Source: an uncultured Chthonomonas sp. (GTDB lineage: Bacteria; Armatimonadota; Chthonomonadetes; Chthonomonadales; Chthonomonadaceae). From it: 64,000 bases of DNA. The stretch spans positions 1 to 64,000 of the forward strand of contig CAIONQ010000131.1 of NCBI GenBank assembly GCA_903859705.1. The letters are read 5' to 3'. Below the pieces are notes generated by a model. The model saw only the letters and a list, made by a program, of their open reading frames with translations. It did not search any database and was not told the DNA's origin. Shown here in pieces: positions 9,405-64,000 of the stretch (positions are counted from its first letter, which is position 1; each line of letters starts with the position of its first letter). The position numbers and the translations under genes are program-made.

Positions 9405-11663
9405 TTATTTATCGTGCGCCTTAAGCACTATTCGGCAATGCAACAGGTTTTCGAAGGGGCCGGGAGATGGGTTGGCAGAGTCTCGCCTGGTGCCAGCAAA
9501 ATCGTAATCGATGTGTATTTGCGAGGCATCTGCCTGTTCAAACGGCAGCTGAGGAATAAGGGCTATTCCCAGCAAACGGGTGTTAACAATCTTGCGCTGG
9601 CGTGATTCTTTCCATCCTGCATCCAGGGTGAGCTGAAGGGTGAACTCGGTGCCACTGCCCACAATACGCATTGCAATATCGGCATCAGAGATAAGCGGAT
9701 CGGCTTCAATTGCGCAAGGCTTTGCACCACGCAAATATACATTTCCGTCCATCGCCACTGGCAGCTTTGCCCCGTTGTACTGGCTAAGATCTACTGGCTG
9801 CATAAAAATATTGTTGTAGTACCGGTCATCCCCGCGCGGGTTATCATGCAGCCCGCCCAGCTCGGTAGAGTGGGATTTAAGATAAGGCGTAAGGCGGCCA
9901 TCGTAATGAAAGATGTTTATAGCGCCCGCGTAGAGGTTATGCACAAACGCCCCTCCGCGTGAGCAGCTCTGGAACGATGCTGCCGACAAAAACAGGTTGT
10001 TATCCACAACAAATGGTCCGTGATCTACCTCGGTGAAAACATCCAGCGCATTGTGATGGAAGGTGTTGCCAGATACCCTTGTGCCCTGCGCCATCCAATC
10101 CAGCCAGAGCCCCAGGCACGTTCTGAAAATGTGATTGCCTTTAATCACGGTATCTATGGCGCCATGAAATTTAATGCCCGCCATTTCGGCACCCGTGAAC
10201 AGGCGGCGCACATGAATATCGTGTATGGTGTTGCCGCTAATGGTGCTAAAAGCCGCTCCCAGGCTGCCAACAATGCCTGCCTGTTCGCAATGAGATACCT
10301 CATTGTTCCTAACAATGTGGTGGCCAATGGTATCCCGGTTCCAGCCATCTATTAGCCCGCGATGAATGGTCTCTACATAGCCTTCTGCAGAATCTGCAGA
10401 TTTGTTATCCCACGCATCTCCATACTTTCCAAGCGATATGCCGGAACATACAGAGTGGCTAACCTGGTTGTTTTCAATAATCCAGCCTTTGCTCCAGTGC
10501 GGGCCAATAACGCCAATCTGCTCTGCTGTGGGTGGTGCCCAGGGGGTGGCGGCATCGCGCAGGATGAAGCCGCGAACAGTAATGAAGTTACGGCCGGGCT
10601 TATCCGGGTAGAACACCGTTCTGCGCACATTTATCTCAACATTCTCACGATTTGGGTTTACGCCGGGGAACTGCGCCCAGAGGGTTGTGCTGGTTTGGCC
10701 AACCTGCGAAAACCACAGTGGTGCGTTGAGGGCGGCGCGTTTTAGCGGCACAAACACCAGGCACAAATTAGTTGGGCCGCTAAGTGGTTTGGTGCGTATG
10801 CGGTAGGTTTCCCAGGTTTGCCAACCGCCCGTGTTCGGCACATCTACGCTGCCAAGCAGAGGGCCAGTTGCACTGTCTTGGTGAACCTCAATACCGCCGC
10901 CCTCGGATGCAGCAGCAACACGCACCTCAATCTCGGAGCAGCGCTTACCGCAATCCACGGCAGTATAGGTTAACCAATCTTGCCTGCGGATAAAGCCAAC
11001 ACACTCGCCACCCTCCCCACATGGCGCATTTTGCGTTCCCAGCTTTGCGCTCATCTGAGCCGCCGGGATGCGTTTTGCAGACGTTATGTGTGGGCGCAGC
11101 CACGCAATGTTGATGAGGTATTCATCCCCGCCCTGGCGGGATTGGGTGGCAGTATTGGTGTTCGTAAGCTCCGCCAGGCTGGCGGCTTCAATTAACCAGT
11201 TGCCATTCAGATAAACGGCCCCTGTGTGGTGCACCCGCCCCAGTGGCGAAAACCAGTCTCCATGGATCTCATCGGAATAGGGGTTGAACTCTCCGAATAC
11301 GGTGTTGGGCACCTCGGTTTTCCACAGGTTATCGGTTACGTTGGCCCAGTTACCCACTGGCTCCGAGCCTTTGATTTCAACGTGCTCTCCCTTTGCTGCC
11401 TGGTAAACAATTCTGGCCGATTCGGAGGTGCCACCACGCGGTGGATTTACACGCTCGCGGTATGTTCCCGCGTGAACTGTGATGGTATCGCCGGGCTGTG
11501 CAAGCTCGGCGGCATGCTGAATAGTTCGCACGGGCAGCGCGCGTGTGCCTGGGCTGGAATCAGTGCCAGTTACTGCTACATGAAACTCGGAGGCAAGGGC
11601 CTGTGGCCCCAGCGCCAGAATGGTAAACACGCTTAAAACCACACTCATTAAGAAACATCTCAT
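9405..11663 (-). CDS. secreted right-handed beta-helix protein with CBM6-like insert
   Basis: A 752-residue protein with a clear signal peptide (MSVVLSVFTILALGPQALAS). Residues 25-100 (VRTIQHAAELAQPGDTITVHAGTYRERV) are the standard opening of DUF1565-type beta-helix proteins such as pectate-lyase-like or GH141-like enzymes. Around residues 230-310 a CBM6-like jelly roll appears (WLTYTAVDCGKRC...GGWQTWETYRI). Repeats of the type NNQVSHS, RNNEVSHCEQAGIVG, GNTIHDIH and GNHIFRTC then build the helix. The likely role is binding and cleaving an acidic or branched polysaccharide at the cell surface; catalytic residues could not be assigned. The first ATG at 11663 has only a weak ribosome site, and the ATG at 11648 is an alternative. 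Confidence 0.8.
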   Translation of the reverse strand: MRCFLMSVVLSVFTILALGPQALASEFHVAVTGTDSSPGTRALPVRTIQHAAELAQPGDTITVHAGTYRERVNPPRGGTSESARIVYQAAKGEHVEIKGSEPVGNWANVTDNLWKTEVPNTVFGEFNPYSDEIHGDWFSPLGRVHHTGAVYLNGNWLIEAASLAELTNTNTATQSRQGGDEYLINIAWLRPHITSAKRIPAAQMSAKLGTQNAPCGEGGECVGFIRRQDWLTYTAVDCGKRCSEIEVRVAAASEGGGIEVHQDSATGPLLGSVDVPNTGGWQTWETYRIRTKPLSGPTNLCLVFVPLKRAALNAPLWFSQVGQTSTTLWAQFPGVNPNRENVEINVRRTVFYPDKPGRNFITVRGFILRDAATPWAPPTAEQIGVIGPHWSKGWIIENNQVSHSVCSGISLGKYGDAWDNKSADSAEGYVETIHRGLIDGWNRDTIGHHIVRNNEVSHCEQAGIVGSLGAAFSTISGNTIHDIHVRRLFTGAEMAGIKFHGAIDTVIKGNHIFRTCLGLWLDWMAQGTRVSGNTFHHNALDVFTEVDHGPFVVDNNLFLSAASFQSCSRGGAFVHNLYAGAINIFHYDGRLTPYLKSHSTELGGLHDNPRGDDRYYNNIFMQPVDLSQYNGAKLPVAMDGNVYLRGAKPCAIEADPLISDADIAMRIVGSGTEFTLQLTLDAGWKESRQRKIVNTRLLGIALIPQLPFEQADASQIHIDYDFAGTRRDSANPSPGPFENLLHCRIVLKAHDK

Positions 11664-55501: not shown

Positions 55502-57022
55502 CTATTCTGGTGCCGGAAACCCCATGCACTCTACATAGATATCCTGAAACGCCGGGTCGGCAGTAAGCCCAAAGTGAGTGGTAGTTCCAAGAATCCTGGC
55601 GTACTTCAGGTGCTCTTCATCCTGCGCAAATAGGGCGATTTTTGCACCCAGGAGTGCGCTGTTGCCTATGGGCTCTACCCTGTCTGGTGCAAACTCAATA
55701 AGCCCGATTCTGCGGGCAGAAGCGCGATCGATATAGTTTCCGAAGGCACCAGCCAGATAGATGTGCTCCAGATCTTCAGAACAGGCACCCCAGGCATTCA
55801 AAAGTATCTGAATCCCTGCGGCTATGGCTCCCTTGGCAAGTTGAAGCTGGCGGATATCGGTTTGAGTTAGCTTTACAGGTTCCTGCAGCAGCATATCACC
55901 CCCGCCTTTTATTCGGCCCGTTGGAGTGATTACTCCCATATCCAGCCCAACGGCAACGGCATCAACAAGGCCACTGCCGCATAGGCCGGTGGGCGTAATG
56001 CTGCCAAGCACATCACAGCGCAATGCGTCCGATCCCACTTCTGGCACTGCAACCTTCCATATGGCCCCACTGGAGGCGCGCATTCCCATAGATATGCGTG
56101 CGCCTTCAAATGCCGGGCCGGCCGCAGTGGAGGCAACGAGTATCTTCTCCTTATTGCCCACAACTATTTCACCGTTGGTGCCAAGGTCTACAAGCAGAGA
56201 GGGTTTATCGCGCAGGTGCAGGCCTGAGGCAAGGATGCCCGCAAGAATATCGGAGCCAACAAAGCTGCCGAGGCAGGGCAAAAACCAGATCTCAGCATCT
56301 GAAGGCAGATCGAAGCCCGAATCTGCGACACAGATTCGCACCAACCCGGCGTTTTCTGTTTCAAACGGATAGCGGCTCAGCGGTTCCAAATCTATTCCAC
56401 AAAACAGATGGTGCATTACGGTGTTGCCAACAAGCACTACCCTGCATATTTCATGGAAATCAACATCTGCGGCTTGCGCCAGTTGCTTCAGGAGGGCTCC
56501 AGCATGCCTTAGGATGGCCTCTTTTAACTGCTCGGCCCCATTTTCAGATACGGCGTGCTGTACGCGGCTCATAACATCCGCGCCATACCTGGCCTGTGGA
56601 TTGAGCGCTGTGCGCACCGCAATTACTGCGCCAGTGGTTAGGTCCAGAAGCTGAGCTACCAGGGTGGTAGTGCCCACATCAATGGCAACGCCCAGGCCCT
56701 TGCGCGGCACAAACGCAAACTCGGTATCGTTTGTAAGGATCGTAGAGTCCCACTGTCGAAGCTCAAGGGTAAGATCCGATTCCGCCGAACACTGGCAGGC
56801 AAGCCGCCAGCCCTCATCCAGTTCCTGCTGTGTAAGGCGCTCCAACTGAGCCTCGTTTACCGTTGTCTCGCCAGCCACAACGCGCACTCTACACCCGCGG
56901 CAACGGCCCTGCCCACCACACGGAAACTCCACGGAGTGTTCAAACAACAGGTCTTTAAGCGCTGCTCCATGCTCAGCTATAAGTTCAGAGCCTACTGGCT
57001 TCAGCGTTACTTTGTGCTTCAT
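55502..57022 (-). CDS. RACo-like [2Fe-2S]/ASKHA corrinoid activation protein
   Basis: 506 residues from the ATG at 57022 (GTGAGG upstream). The N-terminal ferredoxin domain has four cluster cysteines: Cys 35, 41, 44 (CGGQGRCRGC) and 76 (RLACQC). The long DUF4445/ASKHA part follows with GVAIDVGTTTLVAQLLDL (phosphate 1), LVGNTVMHHLFCGID, LLVDLGTNGEIVVGNK (phosphate 2), STAAGPAFEGARIS and YLAGAFGNYID. This is the architecture of RACo and RamA-like proteins, which use ATP and one electron to reduce inactive cob(II)alamin of corrinoid proteins to cob(I)alamin. Its place behind methyltransferases fits exactly. Confidence 0.92.
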   Translation of the reverse strand: MKHKVTLKPVGSELIAEHGAALKDLLFEHSVEFPCGGQGRCRGCRVRVVAGETTVNEAQLERLTQQELDEGWRLACQCSAESDLTLELRQWDSTILTNDTEFAFVPRKGLGVAIDVGTTTLVAQLLDLTTGAVIAVRTALNPQARYGADVMSRVQHAVSENGAEQLKEAILRHAGALLKQLAQAADVDFHEICRVVLVGNTVMHHLFCGIDLEPLSRYPFETENAGLVRICVADSGFDLPSDAEIWFLPCLGSFVGSDILAGILASGLHLRDKPSLLVDLGTNGEIVVGNKEKILVASTAAGPAFEGARISMGMRASSGAIWKVAVPEVGSDALRCDVLGSITPTGLCGSGLVDAVAVGLDMGVITPTGRIKGGGDMLLQEPVKLTQTDIRQLQLAKGAIAAGIQILLNAWGACSEDLEHIYLAGAFGNYIDRASARRIGLIEFAPDRVEPIGNSALLGAKIALFAQDEEHLKYARILGTTTHFGLTADPAFQDIYVECMGFPAPE

Positions 57023-57046
57023 TGCCTCACCCCTGTCCATATCCGT

Positions 57047-58057
57047 TTACCGGTGAGTTTGTGCGTAATCGGATAACACTCTAAGATTCTCATGGGGTGT
57101 ATCTCGCACAACTTCGCAACCGGCTCCAACTATAAATCGCTTCCCGGCCTCAGCATGGCACTGTTCCAGCACGGCATACACCTCATCTGGTGTGCCGTTG
57201 CGCAGAACGCGTACCGGATCCATATTGCCCAGCAGCGTTTGATCTTCGCCCATATCCGTGCGGGCTTTGCTTAGCGGAGCAAGAAAATCGATATCCACGA
57301 TATCGCAGCCTAACCTGCCCATTCCGTTCAATATGCGTTTTGTGTTTCCGCAGATGTGCAGGCGAACCATAGCGCCCATTGCGTGCACTCCGTCTACCAT
57401 GCGTTTTTCGTATGGATACACAAACTCTTCGTACAATGCTGGCCCAATAAGCGATGCGGCAGCATCGCCAATACCAATACACTGAGCCCCCGCTGCAATT
57501 TGATGTTTTGCAAACTCCAGCTCCATTTCCAGTACAAATTCAAACAGATCCGTTACAAAGGTGGGATCATCATAAAAATCAAGCATCAATGTGTTTAACC
57601 CGCGCAGATCTGCCGCTTCTGCCATGGGGCCTTCGATCCAGCCTTCAATCATCAGGGAGGTACCCACCCGTTCGCGGTACAATTCCAGCGCCTTAAGGCG
57701 GTTATTCATACGACCGCCAGCGGTGGAATCGGGTATTTTCAGGCCAGTAAGCAGGCTCTTATTCACAAGTAGTGCCCGAGATTCATCAATTGCGGGTGGT
57801 GAGTTAGGGAAGAAAGTTACTCCGGCACCACAATCGGCAGCCTCACAGGCCGGGTCCGACATGGTGTTTACATAATCCAGCCCAAATGCCTCTGCAGTTC
57901 TCAGTTGTCCCTCTACCAGTACGCGGTAATCGGTGGCGTAATCCAGATACTGGGCTCCAATAAGATCGCAGGCAAACTGCATTGTTATCGGCATGCATGC
58001 CAGCCTATCGGCATTATTGCCGCGGGCAGCGGCCTCCACTATGTCTCTTCCGGTCAT
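57047..58057 (-). CDS. MtaA-like corrinoid methyltransferase (UroD family)
   Basis: 336 residues, ATG at 58057 after GAGGAG; the start overlaps the stop of the DUF1638 gene (ATGA). The zinc motif of MtaA-type enzymes is complete: RLHICGN (His 234, Cys 236) and VGAGCEV (Cys 314). From memory, the spacing matches MtaA of methanogens (His-x-Cys, then about 77 residues, Cys). The UroD barrel is seen in DYVNTMSDPACEAADCGAGV, IEGPMAEAADLRG and VDIDFLAPLSKARTDMG. These enzymes move the methyl group from a methyl-corrinoid protein to a zinc-bound thiol. The acceptor in this organism is unknown, since coenzyme M is not expected. Confidence 0.88.
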   Translation of the reverse strand: MTGRDIVEAAARGNNADRLACMPITMQFACDLIGAQYLDYATDYRVLVEGQLRTAEAFGLDYVNTMSDPACEAADCGAGVTFFPNSPPAIDESRALLVNKSLLTGLKIPDSTAGGRMNNRLKALELYRERVGTSLMIEGWIEGPMAEAADLRGLNTLMLDFYDDPTFVTDLFEFVLEMELEFAKHQIAAGAQCIGIGDAAASLIGPALYEEFVYPYEKRMVDGVHAMGAMVRLHICGNTKRILNGMGRLGCDIVDIDFLAPLSKARTDMGEDQTLLGNMDPVRVLRNGTPDEVYAVLEQCHAEAGKRFIVGAGCEVVRDTPHENLRVLSDYAQTHR

Positions 58058-58830
58058 CCCAGGATCTCCTCAGCAGGCTCTATATCCACAATACGCTCGT
58101 CGTACTTTGCACGTACCTGGCTGCCAGGCGGCACAATAAGAAACTCTTCCTGGTTCCACTCCCCGTCTGTAAGCTGTTGTATTAACCTCATATCACCGCG
58201 AACGTTTTGAAACTTCCAGCCACGTTCATCAGCTTCTGCTTTTGTACTATCGGCATAGCTGCTATTTGGCTCTACTCCCATTTCTATAAAGGTGTACTGG
58301 CCGTAGTTGTGCCTGTCATCCCCCAGCATTTGAAACAGATATCGCCCGTTATCTTCACCGTATTTGGAAATAAAATCGGCAAGGAGTGTATTGATGCCAG
58401 CCTGCTTCTGTATAGATAGCTGGCTAAACTCGCCAGAGGCACTGCCCCTATCTATCCAGCCTGTTGTTTTAAAGTAGGTTCCGGGGTTGGCGTTAAAATA
58501 CTCAACATACCGTTGGCGGCTGCCCAGAAACAGCGTTATGCAATCGTGCGCGCGGGGAAGCACCAGCGGTACAGTGCGTGCCTGCAGCCCTGCCAGGCCG
58601 TTATTGCACAGCCCATACCCAAGTAGGATAGCGCTATAGGTTATGCCTTGCGCTTGCATCTCCGCCTCTGCAACATCCACAGCCGCCTGCATGCGCTCGC
58701 GCATACCGGCAGATCCGATATCGTGCAGCCCCTTGGGCAAAAACGAAATATCGATCATATGTGGCGACCGGGAGACAGCAAGGCACATCTCCCGGTAGAA
58801 CACTTCGCAGCTAATGAGCTTTAATCGCAT
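58054..58830 (-). CDS. DUF1638 protein
   Basis: 258 residues, ATG at 58830 after GAGGAAGTAG. The signatures are LISCEVFYREMC (Cys 8), ILLGYGLCNNGLAGLQARTVPLVLPRAHDCITLFLGS (about 70-105) and NPGTYFKTTGWI. DUF1638 genes are found beside corrinoid methyltransferases in methanogens and acetogens, and their function is not known. Conserved Cys and His residues suggest metal or corrinoid handling. It is coupled by a 4-base overlap with the MtaA-like gene. Confidence 0.9.
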   Translation of the reverse strand: MRLKLISCEVFYREMCLAVSRSPHMIDISFLPKGLHDIGSAGMRERMQAAVDVAEAEMQAQGITYSAILLGYGLCNNGLAGLQARTVPLVLPRAHDCITLFLGSRQRYVEYFNANPGTYFKTTGWIDRGSASGEFSQLSIQKQAGINTLLADFISKYGEDNGRYLFQMLGDDRHNYGQYTFIEMGVEPNSSYADSTKAEADERGWKFQNVRGDMRLIQQLTDGEWNQEEFLIVPPGSQVRAKYDERIVDIEPAEEILG

Positions 58831-58851
58831 CTACTTCCTCTGTGCGATCCA

Positions 58852-60018
58852 TTAACCCAGATGCCAGGAGTAGCGCTCCCGGTCTGAGGTGGCGGCATTT
58901 TCATCTACCACGCCCGTAGGCTTAAGGTTGGGAAGGCCCTTGCCCCACACGCGCTTGGCCTCTGTGAGGTAGAAGAGATAGTTATCCAGCGAGACATCCG
59001 GTGGAACGCGGTGATCCGGTGTAGGAATGAACCCACCATCTTCAACAAGCCAGTTCAAACGCTCTACCTCTGCTGTAATCTCTTCTCGAGAGCCAGCAAG
59101 TATCTGTTTGCCCACGCCACCAACCATCAGCAGATCGCGGCCGAACTGTTTGCGGTACTTAATGGCATCTGCCCCCCAGGTTCCCACCTCTATGGGGAAC
59201 ATGGTGTTAACGCCACCCTCCAGCCACAGCGGCAGCAGTGATGTCATATCGCCATCGCAATCTACAATCACCACATCCACACCATGCTTTTTAAGCAGGT
59301 CTGTAATTCTGCGGTATTGCGGCACCAGAACCTGCTTAAACACACGCGGCGATAGCAGCGGGCCGGCCCTGTAGCACATATCTTCCCACATCATGGCGTA
59401 CTCAAATTTCACGCCAGATTCCAGGGCTGGTGTTAGAGTTTCTATCATGCAATCTGCAACCGTTTCAACCATTTCTTCAAACAGCTTGCGGTCGTCAAAT
59501 ACCAGCATCGATACCGCTTCAAGGCCCATCCAGTTACGAATCCAGCCATACAAGGATCCTGCATTGATGCCCAACGGGTAATCGCGATCAGGGTTCAGAT
59601 AGTTCGGCAGTTGGTTGGCCCAATGCCGGGAGTAACGTGCCTTATCTGACCCGTTCAGGCGCCATTTAAACTCTTTTTCCCAGCTATCCCTATCTTTAAG
59701 GGTGTGATCTATGTGCCGGGGGATGGAGCCCAGAAACTTACCCTGTTCCTTGGTTACTCCCTCACCATCCCGCACTATCTCAGAATCGCCCTTATCTTCC
59801 AGCACGGTGTACTGAAACGAAGGGCACAGATTCACATTGATAGGTGCCACATGCCACTGAGGGTCCATACCAAAGAAGGCATCAGGATCACATTTGCCGG
59901 GCAGTCCATAACGCTCCCAGATCACAAGCGTTTCATCCCAGAAACCAAAATCCATGATCGGGGATCTATCCCGCTCCTGGTAGTGCATCGTCGCTATAAA
60001 GCGTTCTCGTGCGTTCAT
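58852..60018 (-). CDS. UroD-family protein with altered metal motif
   Basis: 388 residues, ATG at 60018 with GGAG 7 bases upstream. The UroD barrel is recognisable (NARERFIATMHYQERDRSPIMDF, MMWEDMCYRAGPLLSP, VDVVIVDCDGDM, GGFIPTPDHRVPPDVSLDNY). Where MtaA has H-x-C-G, this protein has D-C-D-G, and there is no C-terminal Cys partner. It is therefore neither a heme-pathway decarboxylase by context nor a canonical zinc methyltransferase. This subgroup is common in Planctomycetota and Armatimonadota. It is 21 bases before the DUF1638 gene. Confidence 0.88.
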   Translation of the reverse strand: MNARERFIATMHYQERDRSPIMDFGFWDETLVIWERYGLPGKCDPDAFFGMDPQWHVAPINVNLCPSFQYTVLEDKGDSEIVRDGEGVTKEQGKFLGSIPRHIDHTLKDRDSWEKEFKWRLNGSDKARYSRHWANQLPNYLNPDRDYPLGINAGSLYGWIRNWMGLEAVSMLVFDDRKLFEEMVETVADCMIETLTPALESGVKFEYAMMWEDMCYRAGPLLSPRVFKQVLVPQYRRITDLLKKHGVDVVIVDCDGDMTSLLPLWLEGGVNTMFPIEVGTWGADAIKYRKQFGRDLLMVGGVGKQILAGSREEITAEVERLNWLVEDGGFIPTPDHRVPPDVSLDNYLFYLTEAKRVWGKGLPNLKPTGVVDENAATSDRERYSWHLG

Positions 60019-60053
60019 TTGAATCTCCGCGGCATATTCGCCCGCTTGTATCT

Positions 60054-60932
60054 TTACTTTCGATCGTTAAGGGCCGCACCCAGAGCCGTGATGAACTCTG
60101 GAGAAGTGCCGCAGCACCCACCCACAAACCCTGCGCCAGCATCTACCAGCAGCATCACATTGGCAGCAAACTCTTGCGGCGACGTTGAGTAAACCGCTGC
60201 GCCATCCACAATTTGTGGCAACCCTGCGTTTGGCTTCATCCACACCGGCATTCCAGAGGCAGTTCTTAAGCGTTCACAAATTCCTACCATCTGTTCGGCC
60301 CCCTGGCCGCAGTTGGCACCTACCAGATCTGCCCCGGCACCCAGAAGTGCATCTGCAGCCTGTTCGGGCGTGGTGCCCATAATCGTTCTGTCAGCACTAC
60401 GGCCAGAGCCATACGTCATGCAGGCTACCACTGGCAAGCCGGAGCTTTTTGCCGCCCTTACAGCAATGACAGCCTCTTCCGGATCAGACATCGTTTCCAC
60501 CACAATGGCATTGGCACCCCCTTCTGCCATTGCAATTGCCTGTTCCGTAAATGCCGCTAACAACTGCGCTTCTGTAACTTCCCCCATGGCGAGCATTTTG
60601 CCGCTTGGCCCCATGGATGCAAATACAGAACATTCTTCCCCAGCGGCCGTTCGTGAAATGGTTGCCCCTGCCCTGTTAATATCTGAAGCCAGAGGCGATA
60701 GGCCATGCCGATCCAGCGTTATGCGCGTTGCTCCAAAAGTATTGCTCAGAATAACCTTGCTGCCAGCCGCTACATACCCGGCTGCAACCTGCGAAACAAG
60801 ATCTGGATTGGTAAGGTTCCAGGCATCCGGGCAGGCACCAAAGGCCAGGCCACGCTGCTGAAGCTGCGTGCCCCAGGCACCATCGGTAAGCACGGGTCCA
60901 TCCGTAAGCAGGTTTTGCAGAAACGAGTTCAT
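60054..60932 (-). CDS. zinc homocysteine S-methyltransferase (MetH N-terminal type)
   Basis: 292 residues, ATG at 60932, weak site. Zinc ligands: Cys 208 in GANCGQG, Cys 273 and Cys 274 in GGCCGTSPEF. These are within one residue of the three Cys of Thermotoga MetH (recalled, not checked). TDGAWGTQLQQRG, LSNTFGATRITL and VVETMSDPEEA complete the barrel. The domain binds and activates homocysteine and moves a methyl group to it. It has no folate, cobalamin or reactivation domain, so it must take the methyl from a separate protein. In this operon that could be a methyl-corrinoid protein. Confidence 0.92.
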   Translation of the reverse strand: MNSFLQNLLTDGPVLTDGAWGTQLQQRGLAFGACPDAWNLTNPDLVSQVAAGYVAAGSKVILSNTFGATRITLDRHGLSPLASDINRAGATISRTAAGEECSVFASMGPSGKMLAMGEVTEAQLLAAFTEQAIAMAEGGANAIVVETMSDPEEAVIAVRAAKSSGLPVVACMTYGSGRSADRTIMGTTPEQAADALLGAGADLVGANCGQGAEQMVGICERLRTASGMPVWMKPNAGLPQIVDGAAVYSTSPQEFAANVMLLVDAGAGFVGGCCGTSPEFITALGAALNDRK

Positions 60933-60947
60933 AGAGGGTTGTTTCCT

Positions 60948-62201
60948 TTATTGGTTCGCATTTGTTTCGTTGGCACAATCCAAATTAGTTACAAAACGGC
61001 CGTACTCCCGGCACGTCTGCACCATGGCTTCGGTATTTTCAGGGGGAGTATGCGGGGCCAGGTTGTTGCCCTCACGCATTACAAACTTTCCACCCTCCAG
61101 CACACCAGAATTCAATATTCGCAGTGTTTCTTGCTTTACATCTTCCACACTGCCGGAGCGCAACAGCTCTATATGCGGCCCGCCCTGGATACGTACATCC
61201 GTGCCGACCTGCTTGCGCAAGGCGCCAAAATCCACGGGGAAACCCGTATCGAACGAGCGGATGTTCAGCTCGTCTCGGAGCGTGGTGAAATGCCTCGTAG
61301 CATCGCCGCATAGGTGAATGGAACCCGGAGCGCCCGTGCCAAGGGTGCTATATATCTGGCGATGGTACGGCAGAATATGTGCCCGGTACATTCTGGTTGA
61401 GATGAGGGCAATGCTGTCATCCGCTATGCCAAAACCCGGCTGAGGAAATGGGATGCCAACCAGCCTGCGCCATGCCAGCATTCGGCTAATGGTGGCCTCG
61501 GTGATAAATTCCAGCAGCTTATGCAGCCTCTCTGGCTCCGTTGCCATAGCTGTACACACAAACTGTGCACCAAATAGATTGCAGGCCACCGTCATTGGGC
61601 CATCGCTGCCAAGGCCGAATCCGGGTGGGTTAATATCTATTGGCCGATTGAGATACGTTTCCCCACGTTTTTCCGCACGTATTTGAAACCGATTATAGTA
61701 ATCCAGGCCGCGCGCCATCACTCCACCAAATGGATCGGGCAGGCCATGCTCCATCACCCGTTCCGGGCAATCGGCAAAGGATGCCCGTGTATCCGGCACT
61801 TCGCCCTGGCAGTACACCAGTGGGCACCCAAACCAGGCGGCTTCGTAATAGTTCTGAAAATCAACGCTTATTCGCCATCGCTCTGGCAGGCCCAGTTCGG
61901 CATCCTGCAGTAAATTGGTTCGGCTCCAGCGGGCAAAGCGCAACTGCGCTTCAAACATAATATCCGGGTTTTCAGTATAAGTACGAAAATCCAGGTGGCA
62001 CGGATTCGCCGCTTCGTTAAACATAAAATACCGGGTATTTGTACCCAGTATTACCGGAACCCGGGTGGGTGTACCCGCATTGAAGGCGGCCCACATTGCC
62101 CGCACTTCTGAATTGTGCTCTTCAAAATTGAGATGTTCCAGCCTATCGGGCTGGGCTGGCGCTTTATCGAATGGTACGCAGGTTTGGGCAGTAGTTGTCA
62201 T
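60948..62201 (-). CDS. UroD-family protein with partial zinc motif
   Basis: 417 residues from the ATG at 62201, which overlaps the stop of the gene before (TAATG). H-x-C is kept (SIHLCGD, His 296 and Cys 298), but the third Cys is replaced by REGNNLAPHTPPEN. This last pattern is typical of UroD-like methyltransferases that bind another ligand there. N-terminal FNAGTPTRVPVILGTNTRYFMF and VACNLFGAQFVCTAM are also family-like. The likely role is methyl transfer to or from a corrinoid protein. Confidence 0.88.
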   Translation of the reverse strand: MTTTAQTCVPFDKAPAQPDRLEHLNFEEHNSEVRAMWAAFNAGTPTRVPVILGTNTRYFMFNEAANPCHLDFRTYTENPDIMFEAQLRFARWSRTNLLQDAELGLPERWRISVDFQNYYEAAWFGCPLVYCQGEVPDTRASFADCPERVMEHGLPDPFGGVMARGLDYYNRFQIRAEKRGETYLNRPIDINPPGFGLGSDGPMTVACNLFGAQFVCTAMATEPERLHKLLEFITEATISRMLAWRRLVGIPFPQPGFGIADDSIALISTRMYRAHILPYHRQIYSTLGTGAPGSIHLCGDATRHFTTLRDELNIRSFDTGFPVDFGALRKQVGTDVRIQGGPHIELLRSGSVEDVKQETLRILNSGVLEGGKFVMREGNNLAPHTPPENTEAMVQTCREYGRFVTNLDCANETNANQ

Positions 62202-63280
62202 TAAGCAACCCCTTTTGCCGTTGGCCAACCTACACTGCGCAGCAGCTGCCGTGCCTGGGCCTCGGTATCGGTGCGTGTGTGAATGAACATGCCTTCGGGG
62301 CCAACGGCATCCAGCAAAGGCAATACCTCATCAGGATGAACATCTATGGCCTGAACGCTTTTGCCGGCAGCTTTAATCTGTTTGTAAAGCTCATACCATT
62401 GCGGCGAGCCACCCCCCGGAAGGCCCGCCTGCGGGGTCCACTCTATTGCTTTGATGCCCTCTATGGCAAGCAAGTTCGGCAGTTGTGGAATTGCCTGGGT
62501 TCCATCCAGATGGTACATGGCGTAATCCAGATACGCGCACTGCTGGGTAAGTGCAGGGGAAATAAAGCGGCGGAACATTCGCGGGCTTATCATGCAGCAG
62601 AAATCACACTGAACCTTGGCTGTTTTACCGGGGCCCCACAGTTGAAAAGCGTAGAATGCGCTGCCACCCCAGGCATCCTGCAGCTCTTTCCAGAGCACGT
62701 CATAGCACTCGATATAGGCCTGGCCAATTTCATCCAACCATCGTTGCACCTGCTCCGGGCGTTCGATTAAATCCATCAGGCATTGCTGCGATCCTCGCAA
62801 CTGCGCCAGGGTATCGATATTCTCAACCAGATCGGGAACAGTAACCAGGTAGCGCCCCTGGGATGCTTTGAGGGCCATACGGATGAGGGTAATGTGCTTA
62901 TCCCACCACATGCCCTGTTGTGTAAATTTTATGGGTGGGTGGTTTTCTGGGTCCAGAATGCAGGGCTCGTACCACACCGTTGTTTCATCGATATGCCCCT
63001 CGGCGCCAAGAAACAGCCCCAGGCTGCCCGGGCCGCCGATATCCGTGTTAAACAGAGGCAGGGCTGCGCCGCCGAAGAAAGTGTTGGCGAGGCGAAACTC
63101 TTCGGCGCGCAGTACCCAGTCCAGATCCAGACGCCGGCGTTCTGGCGTTACGTCCAGATCGGGTGGCGGCACCGGTTCCCGGGGGGCATCCCCGGGTGCG
63201 GTGACCGAGAGGGCCAGGGCGGTGCCGTTCCACCAGCCTGTTAACGCGGCGCGTGCCTCCGCCCAGTCCTCTTTCCACAC
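62201..63280 (-). CDS. divergent UroD-fold protein
   Basis: 359 residues from a GTG at 63280 overlapping the stop of the MtaB gene (TAGTG). It is UroD-like by overall layout (RYLVTVPDLVENIDTLAQLRGSQQCLMDLIERPEQVQRWLDEI; CDFCCMISPRMFRRFISP). The catalytic H-x-C has become H-L-D-G (YHLDGTQ) and no C-terminal Cys is seen. No separate ribosome site is present, so it depends on coupling. The function is not known. It may be a chaperone-like or regulatory relative of the active enzymes in the operon. Confidence 0.8.
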   Translation of the reverse strand: MWKEDWAEARAALTGWWNGTALALSVTAPGDAPREPVPPPDLDVTPERRRLDLDWVLRAEEFRLANTFFGGAALPLFNTDIGGPGSLGLFLGAEGHIDETTVWYEPCILDPENHPPIKFTQQGMWWDKHITLIRMALKASQGRYLVTVPDLVENIDTLAQLRGSQQCLMDLIERPEQVQRWLDEIGQAYIECYDVLWKELQDAWGGSAFYAFQLWGPGKTAKVQCDFCCMISPRMFRRFISPALTQQCAYLDYAMYHLDGTQAIPQLPNLLAIEGIKAIEWTPQAGLPGGGSPQWYELYKQIKAAGKSVQAIDVHPDEVLPLLDAVGPEGMFIHTRTDTEAQARQLLRSVGWPTAKGVA

Positions 63281-64000
63281 TATGCTAACCCGTATTCTGA
63301 AGGTAGGTAGGGAGCATCTTTTAGCTGATCTCGCATCTGATCACAGATCTGCTCTTCTGTTTCAGGAAGCGATTCGGCCTGCTTACAGAACTTATCCAGC
63401 CAGCGGATTTCGTTACGAGGAATCTTTACGTCGCCAGAAGCATGGGCTTTACGCAACTCATCCAACGTGGCAATGGCGGCAGCCCTGGTGCGCTGATAGG
63501 GGTTTTCGTACTTTATAATTTCGCCAGCGAGGCGAATTACCACATCCGGCCTCAGCACATAAGCCTGCGGATCCATAGCAGAATCCGATTCCACCAGCCA
63601 GTTGCGCATCTTCAGCCTATCGGCATCAGAAGAGCGACCTGCTGTGTTTAGCAACCGGCAATCATAAGCCAGCTGTTCGAGAGATACAACCGGAGCGCTG
63701 GCACTTAGCAGCCGAACATTCTGAACAGATTCGTTCGACCAGCAATCACATACCGCCTGCGAGATATTGCCTACAGAGCTGAGGTGCGCACAGGCGGCGC
63801 TGCGCCCTTCCATAGAGATAGGGGCACCGGTGATGGCCTTGATGTAGGGACCTTCGTAAGCACAGTCTTTACTGGGCCCAACGGCCCCACACTCATAGGC
63901 AACCAGCCCACGCGGCACCGAGGCTACTCGCACCACGGCCGCAAAAACGCGCGGCACCATGCGCTGCTCTGCAAGCACCATGGCAGTGTTTGCAAACCCG
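63280..64000 (-). CDS. mtaB: methanol:corrinoid methyltransferase MtaB-like, C-terminal part (5' end outside window)
   Basis: The frame is open to the end of the window; 239 residues are seen and the start lies beyond it. The segment GLVAYECGAVGPSKDCAYEG, then ITGAPISMEGRSAACAHLSS and NISQAVCDCWSNESVQNVRL, and a final LPSEYG, match MtaB as I know it. The Cys in YECG and the second Cys in CDCW are 49 apart, the same as the recalled zinc ligands Cys 220 and Cys 269 of M. barkeri MtaB; the third ligand would lie in the missing part. MtaB breaks methanol and passes the methyl to a corrinoid protein (MtaC). A related methyl donor is possible. Confidence 0.85.
   Translation of the reverse strand, partial: GFANTAMVLAEQRMVPRVFAAVVRVASVPRGLVAYECGAVGPSKDCAYEGPYIKAITGAPISMEGRSAACAHLSSVGNISQAVCDCWSNESVQNVRLLSASAPVVSLEQLAYDCRLLNTAGRSSDADRLKMRNWLVESDSAMDPQAYVLRPDVVIRLAGEIIKYENPYQRTRAAAIATLDELRKAHASGDVKIPRNEIRWLDKFCKQAESLPETEEQICDQMRDQLKDAPYLPSEYGLA

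Follow-up and report, generated by a model that had tools for sequence, protein, structure and literature searches.

Analysis of a 64,000-nucleotide stretch of DNA (hereafter, the window) from an uncultured Chthonomonas sp. of the Armatimonadota (assembly GCA_903859705.1, contig CAIONQ010000131.1) revealed a nine-gene operon for corrinoid-dependent methyl transfer on the minus strand. The window covers positions 1-64000 of a 90770-base contig, and the genome (6.24 Mb) is 95.7% complete. The operon, which has one gene more than the window shows, starts with a gene for a corrinoid protein and ends with a gene for a RACo-like activator. Its probable function is that of a split methionine synthase that is donor-fed and independent of folate. 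A donor, a carrier, an acceptor and a reactivator are all encoded in this one operon, with their metal ligands intact. Family membership, ligands, operon structure, gene absences and the association of these genes across phyla were observed directly. The operon is conserved and real, far beyond chance, because a sister genome has the genes in the same order and the gene set is found again in other phyla.

The original prediction, made from the window alone, had described eight minus-strand genes separated by overlaps or by gaps of 35 bases or less, and this layout was confirmed. It had also expected a corrinoid protein gene beyond position 64000 or elsewhere. Reading of the contig past the window revealed this gene as the next one after MtaB, at contig positions 64744-65472 on the minus strand, and the genes that follow further upstream lie on the opposite strand. 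The predicted corrinoid protein (MtaC/MtgC-like, 242 amino acids) matched PF02607 and PF02310 and carries the DxHxxG motif with His132. It resembles the Moorella structure 1y80 (E value 1e-58) more closely than MtaC of 2i2x (E value 4e-28), and the MtgC/MtbC models fit it better than methanogen MtaC does.

The second gene (contig 63280-64704; 63280..64000 in the window, which covers the C-terminal half) encodes a 474-amino-acid protein of the methanol:corrinoid methyltransferase family MtaB, as had been predicted. The protein matched PF12176 with 523.7 bits against a cut-off of 25, covering positions 3-460 of the 460 in the model. Comparison with Methanosarcina barkeri MtaB (2i2x_A; E value 1.4e-86) aligned E179, C235 and C281 with E164, C220 and C269, the zinc ligands of the M. 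barkeri enzyme. By this resemblance, methanol is the likely substrate. In Kiritimatiellota and related metagenome-assembled genomes (MAGs), a gene for a CobW-family GTPase, possibly a metal chaperone, adjoins MtaB (L083:1353-2285, L088:4150-5136, L066:3843-4586).

Further members of the operon correspond to the acceptor and reactivation steps. A stand-alone homocysteine S-methyltransferase (HMT) of the MetH homocysteine-module type (292 amino acids; 60054..60932) matched PF02574 with 213.6 bits and MetH (1q7m) with an E value of 2.6e-44, and the zinc ligands C208, C273 and C274 are retained. The last gene (55502..57040) encodes a RACo/RamA-like reductive activator of corrinoid proteins with RACo_C_ter, Raco_middle and Fer2 domains (E value 1.2e-75 to 3zyy). 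The DUF1638 protein (58054..58830) matched PF07796 with 107.5 bits. The earlier assignments of these three proteins were thus borne out by Pfam and NCBIfam profile matches. In Phaeobacter, a three-part MetH makes methionine only with the help of both DUF1638 and a RamA-like protein (PMC5764234), and in Ruegeria one carrier serves both betaine demethylation and methionine synthesis (PMC12478193). By analogy with the Phaeobacter genetics and with Ruegeria, RACo and DUF1638 would function in corrinoid reactivation, the latter presumably as an accessory to a corrinoid methionine synthase or to its reactivation. A search of plasmids for DUF1638 revealed no match. In Acidobacteria bacterium YP4.bin42 (L071, frame from 3793), HMT and DUF1638 matches lie in one 547-amino-acid open frame; this apparent fusion would tie DUF1638 directly to homocysteine methylation.

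The operon encodes four UroD proteins, of which a single one, the MtaA-like protein (57047..58057), has kept a His-Cys-Cys zinc site. It matched PF01208 with 196.8 bits, TIGR01463 with 148.3 bits (under the cut-off of 235.4) and 4ay7 with an E value of 1.3e-19. The full zinc motif claimed for it earlier was found as H234, C236 and C314, unvarying in 6 homologues, and suggests a thiol-type methyltransferase. The second UroD-superfamily protein, U426 (60948..62228; translation may actually begin at the ATG at 62201), matched PF01208 with 100.8 bits and shows H305-x-C307 with an Asn, N388, at the third ligand position; these residues are unvarying. Profile-profile comparison with the MtaA-like alignment gave a good match only for U426 (99.5%, E value 2e-22), a weak one for U388 and none for U359.

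U359 (359 amino acids; 62201..63280) had no Pfam match by sequence, and U388 (58852..60018) matched PF01208 with 50.6 bits. Their folds are predictions, because sequence searches of the PDB gave no relative for either protein. Both proteins were folded with AlphaFold from family alignments, and the top structural match for both was methylcobalamin:coenzyme M (CoM) methyltransferase (4ay7/4ay8). The U359 model (mean predicted local distance difference test [pLDDT] score of 89) retrieved 4ay8/4ay7 as the best Foldseek match with an E value of 1e-6, and the U388 model (mean pLDDT of 72) retrieved 4ay7 with an E value of 5e-9 and also UroD. The models thus point to a UroD/MtaA fold for both proteins, for U359 by fold alone, and U359 is a probable corrinoid methyltransferase. 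In U359, H257-x-D259 replaces the His-x-Cys motif, and H257, D259 and G260 are unvarying in 11 homologues. In U388, a carboxylate/His site is formed by D253, D255 and H336, unvarying in 12 homologues. By their position, H257 and D259 of U359 and the three U388 residues are putative metal ligands. Among characterized UroD methyltransferases, those with His-Cys-Cys act on sulfur or selenium substrates, and those with a carboxylate substituted in the site act on oxygen substrates (PMC10418091); U359 and U388 therefore look like O-type enzymes. Alternatively, the UroD proteins could draw on a corrinoid methyl pool, supplied by methionine or methanol, for biosynthetic methylation of some unknown acceptor. 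Three divergent UroD proteins without a close characterized relative could indeed run in either direction. However, carboxylate-site UroD corrinoid enzymes have been described as O-demethylases (PMC10418091) and no product or acceptor genes are conserved beside the operon, which makes this explanation very improbable.

For the split methionine synthase, we infer the substrates, the direction of transfer, the acceptor and what the MtaA-like protein does as follows. MtaB would transfer the methyl group of methanol to the cob(I)alamin that the small corrinoid protein carries. U359, U388 and probably U426, with presumed metal sites that bear carboxylates or are without a cysteine, would probably serve as additional donors by moving methyl groups from other, likely O-methyl, compounds to this carrier. 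The zinc HMT would then transfer the methyl group from the corrinoid protein to homocysteine, yielding methionine. Homocysteine is the suggested acceptor because DUF1638, a RamA/RACo-like protein, a separate HMT and a separate corrinoid protein constitute the known split methionine synthase set (PMC5764234, PMC12478193). The MtaA-like His-Cys-Cys protein may be a second thiol-side enzyme or a demethylase of a methylated thiol. RACo with DUF1638 would re-reduce cob(II)alamin, which would be formed often in an oxygen-respiring cell. The methyl group would be salvaged for biosynthesis and not burned for energy. The original prediction had overlooked the Phaeobacter/Ruegeria set as well as the optional status of MtaB in relatives.

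Operons of the latter kind were found through close HMT homologues in genomes without MtaB. These relatives keep the genes for the corrinoid protein, HMT, DUF1638 and UroD proteins (L169, L170, L173, L174). G054 carries the corrinoid protein, HMT, U388, DUF1638, another UroD protein, the MtaA-like protein and RACo; G028 and G030 carry the corrinoid protein, U359, U426, HMT and DUF1638; and G059 carries the corrinoid protein, U359, further UroD proteins, HMT and U388. A fourth version (G209; L172, G209:C44:3001-18309) comprises HMT, DUF1638, the MtaA-like protein, U388 and RACo, with no MtaB within that stretch. MtaB looks like one exchangeable donor, because relatives keep the carrier, HMT, accessory proteins and UroD enzymes without it, and the latter are the stable part of the operon. 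In G059 (L170:3960-11710), genes for a 318-amino-acid UroD protein and a Gfo/Idh/MocA-like dehydrogenase are inserted between U359 and U426; the dehydrogenase gene possibly hints at sugar-type substrates.

The nearest relative, an uncultured Chthonomonas sp. MAG (L045/L129), has the same nine genes in the same order with one extra UroD gene; the Armatimonadota lineage proposed earlier was right. MtaB was detected in 47 of 291 Armatimonadota genomes. Among the best 80 MtaB loci, one genome per species, an HMT lies near MtaB in 12 and a methyltetrahydrofolate (methyl-THF) methyltransferase in 10, and no locus has both. The 12 loci with HMT belong to Armatimonadota, Acidobacteriota, Bacteroidota, a bacterium of the Planctomycetes-Verrucomicrobia-Chlamydiae (PVC) group and Chloroflexota; the 10 with the folate enzyme are all from Bacillota. 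Armatimonadota MtaB regions (n = 38) contain HMT in 13 cases and the methyl-THF enzyme in none. In a quick MtaB tree, the host protein falls in a 43-row clade (SH-aLRT support of 100) with 13 HMT neighbors and no methyl-THF methyltransferase. The neighbor label switches many times on this tree, so gains and losses were frequent. In a quick tree of HMTs, the operon proteins of Armatimonadota, Acidobacteriota, Bacteroidota and PVC form one moderately supported cluster (SH of 93), distinct from MetH and from alphaproteobacterial Bmt. Where HMT is missing, the genes next to MtaB (sulfatase, pyruvate dehydrogenase, aminotransferase and others) share no substrate hint. On a Terrarubrum flagellatum plasmid (L185:5001-7539), a Bmt-type homocysteine methyltransferase gene stands beside genes for an MttB-family protein and sarcosine oxidase, which is a parallel pairing of donor and HMT in an alphaproteobacterium.

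The rest of the genome was examined family by family. PF00809 was found only in FolP and full-length MetH; the genome search thus revealed no stand-alone methyl-THF:corrinoid methyltransferase, no known folate enzyme unloads the carrier, and no pterin-binding subunit MtgD was detected in the genome by this search or in the operon. PF02574 occurs only in MetH and the operon HMT. A trimethylamine or betaine donor was rejected because the genome has no match to PF06253 of the MttB superfamily. A methanogen-type CoM system was rejected because no ComA (PF02679) match was found in the genome, as the earlier claim of missing CoM genes had it; this search did not extend to the second bacterial pathway for CoM. 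An acetogen-type system was rejected because the stand-alone folate methyltransferase and carbon monoxide dehydrogenase/acetyl-CoA synthase (CODH/ACS; no PF03598) are both absent from the genome. A cytochrome c oxidase cluster (CoxB fused to cytochrome c, CoxA and CoxC) suggests aerobic respiration and an aerobic life.

These absences also bear on methylotrophic catabolism, in which the methyl group of methanol would pass from the corrinoid protein to tetrahydrofolate and be oxidized or assimilated as in acetogens, by means of a folate methyltransferase encoded elsewhere. MtaB, the corrinoid protein and the RACo-like activator are acetogen parts, MetF is present in the genome, and the operon of G209 adjoins genes for an AcsE-like methyl-THF methyltransferase, MetF, a pyridine-nucleotide oxidoreductase and formate-THF ligase (Fhs). 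However, MetH aside, PF00809 was confined to FolP, CODH/ACS is lacking, and a phylum-wide search at 1e-20 revealed no AcsE-like match in the operon carriers G043 (same genus), G033-G036 and G054. We regard this catabolic route as unlikely. The original prediction had proposed a methyl-salvage or methylotrophic route; its salvage part is supported, and its methylotrophic (energy or carbon) part is not, because the stand-alone methyl-THF:corrinoid methyltransferase and CODH/ACS are absent.

Several results weigh against a donor-fed, folate-independent split methionine synthase. Full-length MetH and MetF are present in the genome, so the additional methyl route is not needed for prototrophy. The MtaB protein scored 387.9 bits against the NCBIfam MtaB_Meth equivalog of methanogen MtaB and did not reach its cut-off of 720. 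Neither HMT nor the folate enzyme lies near MtaB in 58 of the 80 loci, partly because of short contigs. A riboswitch search upstream of the corrinoid protein gene gave nothing above threshold, and no other regulatory clue was found there. At 95.7% completeness, a gene scored as absent may have been missed. Finally, the folate genes beside the G209 operon demonstrate that a folate connection exists in some lineages, albeit not in the present genome.

A peroxiredoxin gene adjoins the operon. Genes for an ImuB-like Y-family polymerase and then a DnaE2-like DnaE-type polymerase lie nearby (contig 67471-72171; L004:7471-12171) and are likely a mutagenesis cassette. A YeeE/YedE-like sulfur-transport gene pair lies about 12 kb from the operon, beyond the window (L004:17747-19074). 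Within the window, positions 9405-11663 encode a protein with a GH120 insertion domain and CBM6, which suggests xylan breakdown and makes a salvage of plant-derived methyl groups plausible. One Armatimonadota MAG was recovered from the 13C-labelled DNA fraction of a soil enriched with methanol (PMC10994693); cross-feeding may explain this labelling, which is at most a hint.

Methanogens and acetogens are known to use corrinoid-dependent methanol transfer to gain energy anaerobically. If the split methionine synthase is correct, MtaB has been recruited in oxygen-respiring bacteria for salvage of the methanol methyl group into methionine without folate, and mtaB in a metagenome is not by itself proof of methanogenesis or acetogenesis. 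Several unnamed UroD-fold families would gain a function and a substrate class, and DUF1638 a further setting. In a broader and tentative proposal, aerobic, non-methylotrophic bacteria of several phyla might share a modular methyl-to-methionine hub with one corrinoid protein, a dedicated MetH-type HMT and interchangeable donors, namely, MtaB for methanol and two or more UroD-fold O-demethylase families not described before (U359 with His-x-Asp and U388 with Asp-x-Asp plus His). A literature search for MtaB in Armatimonadota or Acidobacteria and for corrinoid in Chthonomonas, which most subscription papers lay outside, found no description of such an operon. The parts are known separately from methanogens and marine bacteria, and their combination is not described in the searchable literature; new here is a probable split corrinoid methionine synthase fed by MtaB instead of MttB and without a pterin subunit.

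Comparison with known systems revealed partial likeness to several of them. As in methanogen MtaABC, the operon encodes an MtaB whose zinc ligands are the same, together with a small corrinoid protein and an MtaA-like His-Cys-Cys UroD protein. In contrast to MtaABC, no ComA was found here, the corrinoid protein is nearer to MtgC/MtbC and 1y80, an HMT is present, and both the MtaA-like protein and MtaB fall below curated cut-offs. Acetogen MtaBC loci (Acetobacterium, Eubacterium) share MtaB, the corrinoid protein and the activator, but they contain a PF00809 folate methyltransferase and no HMT, the reverse of the operon described here.

Type 1 mlp gene clusters (PMC10418091) contain several UroD proteins, a corrinoid protein and a Ram/RACE activator without a folate methyltransferase, a make-up recognizable in the present operon with its one His-Cys-Cys site, and a reading tied to these clusters was considered. 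It appears improbable, since His-Cys-Cys, the type of site in Mlp2 and Mlp3 of type 1 clusters, is retained in only one of four UroD proteins, MtaB and HMT are outside the type 1 definition as described, and type 1 clusters belong to obligate anaerobes, in contrast to the present host, which encodes a cytochrome oxidase and appears to be aerobic.

The folate-independent split methionine synthase proposed here resembles the MesA-MesC core methionine synthases (PMC7857596) in its transfer from a corrinoid protein to homocysteine. Those enzymes (also MesD) are of the MetE type, whereas the HMT in this operon is of the MetH type (PF02574) with a dedicated methanol-type donor. MtgBCDE of Ruegeria pomeroyi and Phaeobacter inhibens (PMC12478193, PMC5764234) likewise combines a separate corrinoid protein, a separate PF02574 HMT, a RamA-like activator and DUF1638, links donor methyl groups to methionine and operates in an oxygen-respiring host. 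In contrast to MtgBCDE, the donor in the Chthonomonas operon is MtaB and not MttB/MtgB, the pterin-binding MtgD is missing, an MtaA-like protein and three additional UroD proteins are encoded, all genes form a single operon, and the host retains full-length MetH.

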